Shown here: piece by piece, positions 21,486 through 31,689 of the stretch
Position numbering within the stretch: the first letter of the stretch is position 1
Layout: each line of letters opens with the position of its first letter
Source of the DNA: Pseudomonas frederiksbergensis
GTDB taxonomy: Bacteria; Pseudomonadota; Gammaproteobacteria; Pseudomonadales; Pseudomonadaceae
NCBI RefSeq assembly: GCF_000802155.2
Contig: NZ_JQGJ02000001.1
Coordinates: 434,001-498,000 of the forward strand
Direction of reading: 5' to 3'
Length of the DNA: 64,000 nt
Position numbers and translations under genes: made by a program
The notes under the pieces: model-generated
Seen by the model: the letters and a program-made list of their open reading frames with translations, nothing else
Databases searched by the model: none
Told to the model about the DNA's origin: nothing

Positions 21486-22072
21486 GAGCTTTCTCCCGAT
21501 AGAGCCGTTGCGGCACGGCCAAATTGTGGCGTGGGAACTGAGACCATTACAGACGCACCTGCAAGCGAAAAATGCGGATCAGCGGAAAAATCCGGCTACC
21601 CGATCAAGGCACCGAAATTACCTGACCAGTCGAGTGTCCAGGCCAAAGCGCTCTTGAGAAATAGCTTGAATGGGGCCTTCGCCAAATCGCAGCTCACCCG
21701 CAAATTCCAGGAATGCCGGGGCACGGCTGAAGGAACCAGAACGAAGGGAAACTGCGCCAACAACTCATCGGCAAACCGCTGCCGGTGTCCGATGGACGCT
21801 CGGGTCGGCGCTGGGCAAGGACTTGCATGACCTGACCTGAGCGCCACCCTTTTGCAGCGTTCTGTATCCGCGACACACAGCCATACAAACACACCGCCGC
21901 ATGACACATCCCAGATACACGGCAAGCGCCAAATGGCCCCGTCCGAACAGGCCAGTCCCGCCTTGCTTCGACCCGACGTGCCGAGCACCGGGCAAGCAAC
22001 GTGACGCCGCCACGGCACACGCCCCGCGCAACGTTTGCCAGGGGCCACACAGCTCTTATCTGGAGAAACCTC
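21486..22072. other. Intergenic region upstream of the RiPP operon
   Basis: 587 nt. Open frames on either strand here lack ribosome sites and family resemblance. The last 200 nt (unusually rich in A and C, with many CACA and CCA runs) should hold the promoter of the EGKCG precursor gene. No clear ECF-sigma or CopR box was found by eye. Confidence 0.4.
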
Positions 22073-22600
22073 ATGACCCGTACAAAAAACTCGAACTCCG
22101 CTCGCCTCGCCCTCGCCGCCCTGGCTTTGTCCGGCGGCTTGAGCCTGGCCCAGTCCGCTTTCGCCGTGGACACCCTGGCCCAGGGTTATCAATTGGCCTC
22201 GGCTGAAAAAACTTCCGAAGGTAAATGTGGCGAAGGCAAATGTGGCGCCGGCGAATCGTCCAAAAAGGCCACCGAGGCGGAAGGCAAGTGTGGTGAAGGC
22301 AAATGTGGTGCCGCCGAATCGGGCAAAAAAGTCACCGCCGCGGAGGGCAAGTGCGGCGAAGGCAAATGTGGCGACGCGTCCTTCGCTCGCACCGACACTG
22401 ACGACGACGCCCGCGTATCGCTGAAGGAGTTCCTCAGCGTCGCGCCGACCCAGCAAGCGGAGTTCGAAAAGATGGACAGCAACCACGATGGCTACCTGTC
22501 CGAGGCGGAAACCTACAAATACCGCACCGGCCAGTACACGGCCAATGGCAAGAAAGTCCCAACCGAACTGTTCATCCACATGAGCCAAGCCAAGGAATAA
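22073..22600 (+). CDS. EGKCG-repeat RiPP precursor (HvfA/bufferin-like) fused to EF-hand pair
   Basis: A 175-residue secreted precursor. The Sec signal peptide ends AFA-VD (residue 31). Residues 49-100 hold six EGKCG motifs in three pairs with an exact 21-residue period (Cys 52, 57, 73, 78, 94, 99). The C-terminal part carries two canonical EF-hand loops, [12 protein letters not shown] (108-119) and [12 protein letters not shown] (135-146). In the related HvfA and bufferin systems, DUF692 enzymes convert Cys of such motifs to copper-binding heterocycles; that role is inferred here. The two genes downstream encode the matching DUF692 and DUF2063 proteins. These genes are often annotated only as calcium-binding proteins. 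Confidence 0.88.
22217..22372 (+). repeat. Three tandem 63-bp coding repeats ([10 protein letters not shown] units)
   Basis: Each unit encodes two EGKCG motifs plus an 11-residue Ala/Glu/Ser/Lys spacer; the third lacks the spacer. The units are similar but not identical in DNA, so they are not a very recent duplication. Confidence 0.85.
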
Positions 22601-22665: not shown

Positions 22666-23517
22666 ATGAGTACCTTCACTTCACCCAGCGGCGCCGGGCT
22701 CGGCCTGCGCCGCGCCATGCTAGGCGACCTGCTGGAAATGGCACCGAGGGCCGTGGACTTCCTGGAATGCGCCCCGGACAACTGGATCGGTGTCGGCGGC
22801 GTCTACGCTGAACAATTGGACCAACTGGCCGCACGGCACCCCATCACCTGCCATGGACTGTCACTGTCCCTCGGCGGTCCGCAACCCCTCGACCTGGAAC
22901 TGCTGCGCGGCACACGCCGGTTCCTCGATCGCTATGCCGTGGCGATCTACAGCGAGCACCTGAGCTACTGCTCCGACAGCGGCCACCTCTACGACCTCTT
23001 GCCGATCCCTTTCACCGAAGAAGCGGTCCACCACGTCGCCGCGCGCATTCGCCAGACCCAGGACGTGCTGGGTCAACGCATCGCCGTGGAGAACATCTCC
23101 TACTACGCCGCCCCCTTCCAGGCCATGAGCGAAATAGACTTTATCAATGCCGTCCTCCAGGAAGCCGACTGCGACCTGCTGCTGGACGTCAACAACCTCT
23201 ACGTCAACGCCATCAATCACCGTTACGACGCCGCGAAATTCCTGGCCGCCCTTCCCGCGCAACGCGTCACCTACCTGCACGTTGCCGGCCACTATGACGA
23301 AGCCGACGACTTGAAGATCGACACCCACGGCGCGGCGGTCAAGCAGGACGTCTGGGCGCTGCTGCACCAGACCTACCAACGATTTGGCCCGGTGCCGACG
23401 CTCTTGGAACGCGACTTCAACTTTCCTCCGCTCTCGGAGCTACTCGCCGAAGTCGAGCACATCAAAAATCTTCAACAACGCGCTTGCCCGGCAACGGCGG
23501 AGGCCCGCCATGCCTGA
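22666..23517 (+). CDS. DUF692 multinuclear iron oxidative enzyme (MbnB/HvfB/BufB-like)
   Basis: A 283-residue TIM-barrel protein of the DUF692 (MNIO) family, whose members use two or three iron ions and oxygen to modify Cys in peptides. Likely metal ligands sit in the conserved motifs CHGLSLSLG (His63), [43 protein letters not shown] and LERDFNFP. By context it acts on the EGKCG repeats of the upstream precursor. Its 3' end overlaps the DUF2063 gene by 8 nt, which couples their translation. Confidence 0.93.
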
Positions 23518-24250
23518 ACAATTGCTCGAACAACTCAACTGCATGGCCGACTACGTCCGCAACCCCCAAAACCCACCACCGCCGGGGATCGAAGCCCGAC
23601 GCCTGGCCGTCTACCGGCAACTGTTCATCGGCAGCATCGAATCACTGCTGGCCGCCAGCTTCCCGGTCATCCACCGGACCCTGCCACCGGCCGACTGGCG
23701 ATGGCTGGTCCACGACTTCTACGCCAACTTCCGCTGCCAGACGCCGCTCTTCACCCAACTGGCCGGCGAGTTCGTCACCTACCTGGAGCAACGCGCAAGC
23801 CTGCACAACTATCCCGCTTGGCTGCCCGAACTGGCACAGCACGAATGGAGCGAAAGCACCCTGCTGCTGAGCGACGCGGTGGAGCCGTCACACAACCCCC
23901 ACGGCGACCTGATCGAGGGAACGCCCGTAGTATCGGAGCTTGCGCGCGTACATGCCTATGAATGGCCGGTGTGCGATATCGGACCGGGCTATCAACCCAC
24001 CGAAAAACCGGCGGCGCCGACCTTGGTCCTGCTCCAACGCCATGCCGGACACGTGAATTTTTCACGCCTGGCGCCGATGGCTTATGCGTTGTTGGTGTCG
24101 CTGATGGAGCATCGGCGCAGCGGGCGGGAGCATCTGGTTGCGTTGGCGGAGATAGCCGGCGTGACGGCGCGGGAGTTAATGCCGATCGGGGTGGCGGCGC
24201 TTGAGGGGCTCAAGACGCAGGGGATTGTGTTGGGGGCGCGTTGGGGGTGA
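23510..24250 (+). CDS. DUF2063 partner protein of the MNIO enzyme (HvfC/BufC-like)
   Basis: A 246-residue protein with an N-terminal DUF2063 domain: [28 protein letters not shown] (shown in part) and [30 protein letters not shown]. The C-terminal half, from about residue 150, carries a winged-helix-like region ([32 protein letters not shown], shown in part). In related systems this protein binds the precursor leader and presents it to the DUF692 enzyme. The ATG lies inside the 3' end of the DUF692 gene. No DoxX-type gene follows, unlike many such operons. Confidence 0.9.
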
Positions 24251-30907: not shown

Positions 30908-31159
30908 TTAGCCCTGGCTGCAACGGCCCATGACGTCATAGGCCAGTACGTGCTGTTTTCCTTGTGAATCCTGGTAGGTCATGTACGTCGGCACTACAGC
31001 GCAAACATCTGGCACCGGGTCTTCAGAGATGACCTTGGCGACATCAAGGTGGGTGCCATAACCGTATTGCTCTACAGGTTGAGTATTTGCAGCGCCGTCC
31101 TGTGCCGCTACCACAGAGCTGAAGCCCAAGAGTGCGACGATGATCATTGCCGTTTTCAT
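30908..31159 (-). CDS. DUF2790 small secreted protein
   Basis: An 83-residue exported protein: a signal peptide MKTAMIIVALLGFSSVVAAQ, then a short domain with two conserved Cys (VCAVVPTYMTYQDSQGKQH and DVMGRC) that probably form a disulphide. DUF2790 proteins are common in Pseudomonas, and several are known to be metal- or copper-responsive, but their function is not settled. The start at 31159 has AGGAAA upstream. Confidence 0.9.
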   Translation of the reverse strand: MKTAMIIVALLGFSSVVAAQDGAANTQPVEQYGYGTHLDVAKVISEDPVPDVCAVVPTYMTYQDSQGKQHVLAYDVMGRCSQG

Positions 31160-31689
31160 AATGAGATTTCCTAAAGAAAGTGTGATGTTGCTGGCAGGAC
31201 GTACTTTAGGTTCGAGGGTTTTCTGGAAACAGGAGCGAATCAGGGAAAGACTTTTCCAAATTTCGAACACAATGTGAGGATGTCTGACTTAAAGGCTATT
31301 CGTCTGTGACCGTCCGCTATTGGCCGACAGCAGCCCGTCACGCTGCCGTTTAGCTCGACGGAGATGTGCATTGACGTAAGATCGCCGCCCCCAAAAAAAC
31401 AGGGAGGAAATCGGGGCCAGACCACGATTTTGGCTCACAGTCGGACTGTCTCATAATCGTGATTTGTCCCCGTTCCCCAATTAATGTCAATGGGTGGCGC
31501 TGCTGTCGACCTAGGGACTTCAGACGCTTGAGCGGATGCTAAAAGCCTTGTACCTGCTGCCTGTGCATCTTCGAGGGCGGCCGTCGCGAGCCGAGCCGCC
31601 GGGGAGTCTCGGCCCTTCGGGCATTCATCCTTCACACCTACGGGCTTCGGCCTGCGCGCACCGCTTGCGAGGGAACGCACCACTCCTCA
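31160..31689. other. Intergenic block with repeat elements and a doubtful ORF
   Basis: 530 nt. It contains a GACCGTCCGCTATTGGCCGA fragment near 31306, a REP/BIME-like palindromic unit at 31408-31480, and then G+C-rich hairpin-forming sequence. An 82-codon minus-strand frame (31435-31683) runs through that repeat; its low-complexity product and missing ribosome site argue against a gene. Confidence 0.5.
31408..31480. repeat. BIME-like palindromic unit, copy 1
   Basis: GGGGCCAGACCACGATTTT faces ATAATCGTGATTTGTCCCCG across about 20 nt. The unit is repeated in direct orientation at 32457-32538; the two share an exact 20-mer beginning CGGACTGTCTCATAATCG. The ends resemble repeats seen beside REP-associated tyrosine transposases. 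Confidence 0.65.

Follow-up and report, generated by a model that had tools for sequence, protein, structure and literature searches.

The gene described here, an open frame in a 64,000-nucleotide stretch of Pseudomonas frederiksbergensis DNA (positions 434,001 to 498,000 of contig NZ_JQGJ02000001.1, the whole of which we call the window), encodes a putative peptide precursor in which EGKCG motifs are followed by a pair of EF hands. A closely similar arrangement is known from EfhP, a studied, predicted periplasmic EF-hand protein of the important pathogen P. aeruginosa. Its gene lies in the order PA4107-PA4106-PA4105 (PMC4053335), and its product was at first assigned a membrane helix and later predicted to be periplasmic (PMC4053335, PMC9132961). 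EfhP made in Escherichia coli BL21 binds Ca2+ with an affinity of 13.7 μM and becomes more hydrophobic on binding (PMC9132961). The protein carries four EGKCG motifs, deletion of efhP alters calcium-dependent iron uptake, and iron sensing, or dual calcium and iron sensing through the EGKCG cysteines, has been proposed for it, its partners being described as still unknown (PMC11559002). The gene is also the one most activated by the regulator BfmR (printed as '11, 268-fold'; PMC8025907), for which a chromatin-immunoprecipitation sequencing motif, TACAA-N3-GATACA (PMC8025907), and a footprint that protects GATACAnnGC (PMC4148453) have been published.

With regard to the EGKCG motif itself, the product chemistry is 5-thiooxazole and EGKCG products bind copper (PMC12668002); 5-thiooxazole and copper binding have also been described for oxazolin (PMC13419390), for which an absorbance at ~305 nm is reported. 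Two repeats were enough for a FonA peptide to be modified, with a loss of 8 Da (PMC12668002), which we read as 4 Da per Cys, and fontiphorin, one of the EGKCG products, aggregates and precipitates when loaded with copper (PMC12668002). Chimaeras of EGKCG and EF-hand parts have been described as well, with copper and calcium roles suggested and EfhP pointed to (PMC12452194). The fusion pointed out in a preliminary description of the window is real, but these chimaeras and EfhP (2014-2024) are already in print, and it is of a known kind. What we add is a testable coupling of the EF hand with the last thiooxazole, and a promoter signal that ties together unlinked precursor and maturase genes. Our preferred reading, which we hold with moderate confidence, is that BfmR controls the window precursor, that HvfBC matures it, and that the exported product is a periplasmic copper-thiooxazole protein whose fold binds calcium. 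Its maturation by HvfBC is supported by gene co-occurrence; copper binding would be expected by analogy with other EGKCG products and calcium binding by analogy with EfhP, and a coupling between the two metals is hypothesized from geometry.

Translation of nucleotides 22,073-22,597 gave a protein of 175 amino acids in which a sequence scan located EGKCG at residues 49, 54, 70, 75, 91 and 96. The six motifs had been described as lying at an exact 21-residue period; that period holds for the three pairs that they form, whereas the single motifs are unevenly spaced. At the DNA level the region is a 63-bp tandem repeat (2.6 copies, 83%), in which 49 of the first 60 bases are identical between units 1 and 2, and relatives at four loci (L015, L018, L021 and L023) have two EGKCG pairs, one unit fewer. 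The model NF050137 (KCGExKCG_twice) matched three stretches of the precursor at 61.2 bits against a cut-off of 19.5, far beyond chance, and 4394 proteins among 7996 scored candidates matched it at E <= 0.001, the nearest of them bearing the name Pseudomonas. The gene was the sole match to the EGKCG domain model in the whole genome (6.57 Mb, 65 contigs), and EG[KRMQ]CG did not recur in the six frames of the window. HvfA proper was rejected as its identity, the HvfA equivalog NF050188 scoring 50.4 bits, under its cut-off of 95. By inspection, the precursor likely carries a cleavable-looking Sec signal peptide, with the junction placed between AFA and VD, which, like the move of the EfhP literature to a periplasmic prediction, makes the 'immobilised' chelator of the preliminary description doubtful.

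The two EF-hand loops lie exactly where they had been placed, with calcium ligands intact, but they are less canonical than first claimed: neither fits the strict PROSITE EF-hand pattern (in the form used), and Pfam models stayed under their cut-offs, as with EF-hand_5 (PF13202; 19.3 bits, gathering score 25.9). Because the ligands are intact, this shortfall lowers the formal EF-hand label and not the fold. An alignment of 40 chosen relatives showed D108, D112, E119, D135, G140 and E146 to be invariant, and comparison with relative L015 over the 77 codons of the EF domain gave 0, 3 and 18 differences at codon positions 1, 2 and 3, so that the domain looks maintained. In an AlphaFold2 model of the precursor (mean predicted local distance difference test score, pLDDT, 61.5; predicted template-modelling score 0.43), residues 1-91 were disordered almost throughout, mostly at pLDDT below 50, and the sole well-ordered part was the EF pair, into which the 101-170 region folds with blocks at pLDDT 81-94. 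Foldseek searches with this model returned EF-hand proteins, e.g. polcalcin and calmodulin, as top matches (best E 0.057, probability 1.00, none at 0.001); we attribute the weak E-values to the disorder of half of the model. Lanmodulin-like rare-earth binding (NF053806, 18.2 bits against 135) and a XopAW type III calcium-binding effector (24.4 against 120 bits) were considered and rejected.

Downstream of the precursor gene lie hvfB and hvfC, the start of the second overlapping the end of the first (Table 1). The precursor, HvfB and HvfC each exceeded the cut-off of its family model, which bears out the expectation of an EGKCG precursor accompanied by DUF692 and DUF2063 genes. HvfB matched the solved DUF692 protein 3bww with E 4.1e-79, and scored 280.6 bits on the BufB bufferin maturase model NF050167, under the cut-off of 310. 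The whole genome contains three MNIO genes and one EGKCG gene. Among 298 Pseudomonas genomes, 131 had HvfB together with an EGKCG precursor, 3 had a precursor alone, none had HvfB alone and 164 had neither; the precursor search, which matched 134 genomes, counts precursors with or without EF hands, and the HvfB-type class is set off by best E-values below 1e-90 in the 131 genomes and above 1e-72 in the next class. HvfC exceeded its cut-off in 132 genomes, namely the 131 and G183, a precursor-only genome with an HvfC match (model positions 13-234) and merely a 55-residue HvfB match at that locus. As for the other two precursor-only genomes, the precursor frame of G011 appears to change within loop 1, and in G233 both enzymes stayed below threshold and loop 2 carries Asp instead of Gly at its position 6.

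The preliminary description had proposed a search for EGKCG plus EF-hand proteins beside DUF692 and DUF2063 genes. Linked fusions were indeed found, but 48 of 90 distinct fusions had no hvfB in the fetched stretch, usually 1.5-3 kb a side; the regions were hand-chosen, and the share of linked and unlinked genes is not a population estimate. Missing neighbours of efhP in strain Pf0-1 (PMC4053335) and stand-alone precursors in general (PMC12452194) had been noted earlier. All 11 EGKCG genes without EF hands that were fetched from the Pseudomonas genomes have hvfB adjacent. Looking from the enzymes' side, we found no EGKCG gene adjoining hvfB at 18 of 20 separately fetched hvfBC loci (the exceptions are L157 and L158), and therefore the enzymes would need to act on a precursor encoded elsewhere; the genomes of these 18 loci do have a fusion gene elsewhere or, in G046, its remains.

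A predicted BfmR site that matches the published box exactly, and is the sole exact GATACAnnGC in the window, stands upstream of the precursor gene, preceded by an inverse half-site that is kept in four close relatives aligned (Table 1). In de-duplicated sets, TGTATC or GATACA preceded all 36 linked fusions, 40 of the 41 unlinked ones and all 18 unlinked hvfB genes, or 94 of 95 promoters, where resampled sequence led us to expect 1.7, 2.9 and 1.3, respectively. (An initial set of 98 promoters had contained nine loci twice, L137-L145.) Among 1220 control tiles away from the tested promoters, 57 had at least one GATACA and 3 had at least two; a random-window control (142 of 1160) was dropped because its windows could overlap the tested promoters. 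Many of the promoters have two copies of TGTATC/GATACA, 10 or 11 bp apart.

The second regularity concerns geometry. The last EGKCG Cys was 9 residues before EF loop 1 in 119 of the 120 best homologues (the exception, P0047, has a loop 1 missed by our regular expression), in 89 of 91 distinct proteins of Pseudomonas loci (the departures are L098, with its first loop unmatched, and L125, of the sandwich layout described below) and in 47 of 47 non-redundant C-terminal-EF proteins that were left when these sets had been combined with 80 named loci and filtered to below 90% identity. The pool comprised 299 proteins, of which 19 (15 named loci without EF hands, and P0047, P0073, L098 and L223) were dropped for lacking two matched loops after the first EGKCG. 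Loop counts are partly by construction, because the expression restricts loop positions 1, 3, 5, 8 and 12; the spacing is unaffected. The same spacing was seen in Rheinheimera, Stenotrophomonas, Lysobacter and Steroidobacter, and the C-terminal-EF proteins showed motif numbers of 2 to 8 and between-group Cys-to-Cys spacings of 12 to 21. We infer that the last site of modification belongs to the calcium fold and is not loosely attached to it. The two genome sets overlap (e.g. L257 and the contig of L125), and all claims use de-duplicated counts.

A different layout, in which EGKCG motifs flank the EF pair at either end, was observed in 12 of the 80 named loci (L249, L250, L252, L254, L256, L257, L258, L260, L262, L263, L268 and L275) and also in L125 and L157; the hosts of these sandwich proteins are Vulcaniibacterium, Luteimonas, Pseudoxanthomonas, two metagenome-assembled genomes and some Pseudomonas. 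The spacing among 11 non-redundant members was 6 (n=8), 9 (n=2) or 7 (n=1), and we met no description of this layout in the cited passages of the EGKCG literature. None of 30 fetched EGKCG loci of the wider class had an EF domain. Among the named loci, 48 of 53 C-terminal-EF genes had the box at a distance of 300 bp or less, as did 3 of 12 sandwich genes (those of Pseudomonas) and 3 of 15 EGKCG genes that lack EF hands.

Of the 21 named C-terminal-EF loci that have hvfB close by, 12 had a regulator and kinase closely similar to BfmRS near hvfBC, as had 2 of 12 sandwich loci and 0 of 13 loci without EF hands, counts that taxonomy and contig ends confound; such pairs occurred in several genera, and the P. 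delhiensis regulator is 91% identical to the protein named BfmR of P. aeruginosa. The window has no BfmR-like gene. Its genome has two, on contigs C2 and C15, whose products are 88% and 85% identical to that BfmR, the next being at 57%. The promoter of the C15 regulator contains TGTATCN4TGTATC, and on C2 two TGTATC and one GATACA lie between bfmR and a divergent DUF2790 gene. Also on C2, two genes come after bfmS, one ferric-reductase-like (28.5 bits, cut-off 28) and one DoxX (78.7 bits, cut-off 23.6). Bufferin clusters commonly include DoxX genes (PMC12452194), and PA4103, beside bfmRS, is ferric-reductase-like (PMC4148453); the window operon therefore appears to be one part of a cluster that other species keep together. 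P0121, encoded between hvfC and bfmS in L276, is 55% identical to the C2 ferric-reductase-like gene and had no Pfam match even at E 1.

As we envisage it, HvfB and HvfC would modify each EGKCG Cys in the cytosol, and the modified precursor would then be exported and its signal peptide removed. The disordered repeat arm could buffer copper, several ions per protein, and the EF pair may bind calcium and serve as a folded anchor for the arm. The last modified Cys would mark the beginning of the calcium-binding fold, so that the binding of calcium and that of copper at this Cys may affect one another. Cellular effects, such as the calcium-dependent changes in iron uptake ascribed to EfhP, would arise from metal buffering and not from a classical signal-relay partner. 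The two-metal protein of the preliminary description is plausible but unproven, and the mechanism proposed there is partly supported.

Several observations weigh against our preferred reading. The EfhP studies, in the passages cited, report calcium and iron phenotypes, not copper ones. All six Pfam calcium-binding models fell under their cut-offs on the precursor (nearest EF-hand_7, 29.1 against 30 bits), and its loop 1 has Ala at position 6, where 33 of the 47 non-redundant relatives have Gly. G183 and G233 retain an EGKCG pair without a full HvfB. The 9-residue spacing might simply reflect an inherited domain edge, which would give the same count. The promoter counts overstate the evidence, because promoters of relatives are not independent, and the box is missing within 300 bp at 5 of 53 C-terminal-EF loci (three Stenotrophomonas, Steroidobacter and one Lysobacter) and at 9 of 12 sandwich loci. 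Either of the two BfmR-like paralogues may read the window box. The passages surveyed on BfmRS named no copper signal for it, and operators of copper regulators were not searched for.

One rival reading is that the protein is a calcium sensor first, a periplasmic Ca2+ switch like EfhP with cysteines that bind iron or act as redox sites and so add iron sensing. The calcium affinity and hydrophobic change of EfhP, the altered iron uptake of the deletion mutant and its authors' own proposal of dual sensing (PMC9132961, PMC11559002) all fit such a protein, but the EGKCG products tested elsewhere bind copper (PMC12668002). Moreover, the EfhP preparation came from E. coli BL21 with an efhP construct, PA4106 going unmentioned in the cited passages (PMC9132961), which makes it probable that the work did not deal with the native, modified protein. 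We regard a primary calcium sensor as unlikely. Somewhat less likely still is a copper buffer with an inert tail, in which the EF pair merely aids folding or solubility and prevents aggregation of copper-loaded repeats: the behaviour of copper-loaded fontiphorin (PMC12668002) and the position of the EF pair as the one ordered part of the model agree with it, but the invariance of D108, D112, E119, D135 and E146 in the chosen relatives is more than a tail needs. That the cysteines are free thiols, as in an unmodified metallothionein-like or thiol-redox protein, would suit G183 and G233 but is very improbable given the 131 to 0 co-occurrence with HvfB and the standing of EGKCG as an established MNIO substrate motif (PMC12668002).

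Beyond our preferred reading, that of an exported, HvfBC-matured copper protein with a calcium-binding fold, we offer tentatively, as an idea that may well prove wrong, a stronger proposal: that EfhP-type proteins are calcium-organized copper proteins, in which the last thiooxazole caps the first EF helix, so that calcium occupancy of the EF hand sets copper affinity at that site and the reverse; that EfhP is really a modified copper-calcium coupler, so far studied unmodified; and that in a large part of the genus a distant maturase works in trans, with a single BfmR regulon keeping the two halves together. Literature searches on EGKCG with calcium, efhP with bfmR or DUF692, PA4107 with copper, and BfmRS with copper returned titles and abstract openings in which neither fixed docking, nor an unlinked maturase with a shared box, nor copper work on EfhP appeared.

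If the cysteines of EfhP are thiooxazoles in the cell, then its calcium affinity, partners and iron phenotypes need measuring on the modified form, and the link between EfhP and BfmRS would become a question of metal buffering. The nine-residue docking makes it possible to test concretely whether one small protein couples calcium to a transition metal. Unlinked hvfBC operons show that gene-neighbourhood mining alone misses likely substrate-enzyme pairs, which the shared promoter box could locate.

Other features were seen in the loci surveyed. L071 (G204:C22) has two fusion genes close together on the same strand in one genome, with no hvfB in the 6.7 kb fetched, and in L124/L296 (G046), whose genome retains hvfBC, the EGKCG part and the EF part are apparently in different frames. 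At eight loci (L147, L149, L150, L155, L156, L161, L163 and L164) unlinked hvfBC is preceded by a gene that, from reading its sequence, we labelled acetamidase/formamidase-like. In L224, L226, L227 and L228 (three Stenotrophomonas and one Lysobacter) TGTATC/GATACA copies stand some 0.8-1 kb ahead of the fusion gene, where they may precede a different gene of that unit, and in L169 and L185 the box is found upstream of DsbD-like genes as well. In the window genome itself, locus L300 (C2:575500-583500) has DsbD/redoxin-like and DUF2790 genes divergent from bfmR-bfmS and the ferric-reductase-like and DoxX genes, with TGTATC/GATACA between; in L283 (own genome, C15), L182, L191 and L195 a bfmR-like gene is divergent from a small protein that by reading resembles DUF2790, with a tandem TGTATC box between. 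The window has a DUF2790 protein too, at 30908-31270 on the minus strand, about 6.7 kb from the operon (78 bits, cut-off 27). Scans for sigma-70 promoters and terminators around the operon gave 0 promoters (0.9 expected) and 4 terminators (4.4 expected) and were uninformative.

Table 1. Features of the precursor operon and its upstream region, in window coordinates
Feature	Position	Strand	Basis
TGTATC distal half-site, inverse of BfmR core GATACA, 210 bp before start codon	21863..21868	+	
GATACAcgGC, exact match to published BfmR box GATACAnnGC, predicted site	21914..21923	+	motif scan against PMC4148453 consensus
Precursor gene, efhP/hvfA-type, 175 aa, six EGKCG and EF-hand pair	22073..22600	+	scan and family models
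Predicted Sec signal peptide, residues 1-31	22073..22165	+	inspection
Repeat unit 1, residues 49-69, two EGKCG	22217..22279	+	repeat scan
Repeat unit 2, residues 70-90, two EGKCG	22280..22342	+	repeat scan, relatives
Last EGKCG pair, residues 91-100; Cys99 9 residues before EF loop 1	22343..22372	+	
First EF helix, residues 101-107, directly after Cys99-Gly100	22373..22393	+	AlphaFold2 model
EF-hand loop 1, residues 108-119	22394..22429	+	scan, alignment, model
EF-hand loop 2, residues 135-146	22475..22510	+	scan, alignment, model
hvfB, DUF692/MNIO-type maturase (predicted)	22666..23517	+	NF003818 439.6 bits (cut-off 360), PF05114 355.8 bits, 3bww
hvfC, DUF2063-type partner protein	23510..24250	+	NF050145 227.9 bits (cut-off 142), PF09836 72.1 bits

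Among the described systems, that of EfhP (PA4107) with PA4106 (DUF692) and PA4105 (DUF2063) shares with the window locus a 27-residue distance between its two EF loops, EGKCG repeats, the three-gene order and a GATACA-type BfmR box. The window locus differs in having six EGKCG motifs where four are reported for EfhP (the likeness is drawn from the published description), in lacking Gly at position 6 of loop 1, and in having its two BfmR-like genes on other contigs. With the Buf_EGKCG|EF-hand_5 chimaera, as presented in the cited passages of PMC12452194, the precursor shares an EGKCG part after an N-terminus like a transmembrane segment, a C-terminal EF pair, and MNIO and DUF2063 genes; the EGKCG part of that chimaera is described as free of 17-residue repeats, and the window precursor shows no 17-residue period but has three tandem 21-residue units, its relatives reaching eight motifs. 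The captophorins (HvfA/oxazolin, fontiphorin and gonophorin) have EGKCG repeats and HvfB- and HvfC-type enzymes in common with the window locus, the 5-thiooxazole and copper binding being theirs; the passages on them do not mention EF hands, and the window precursor falls under the HvfA cut-off.
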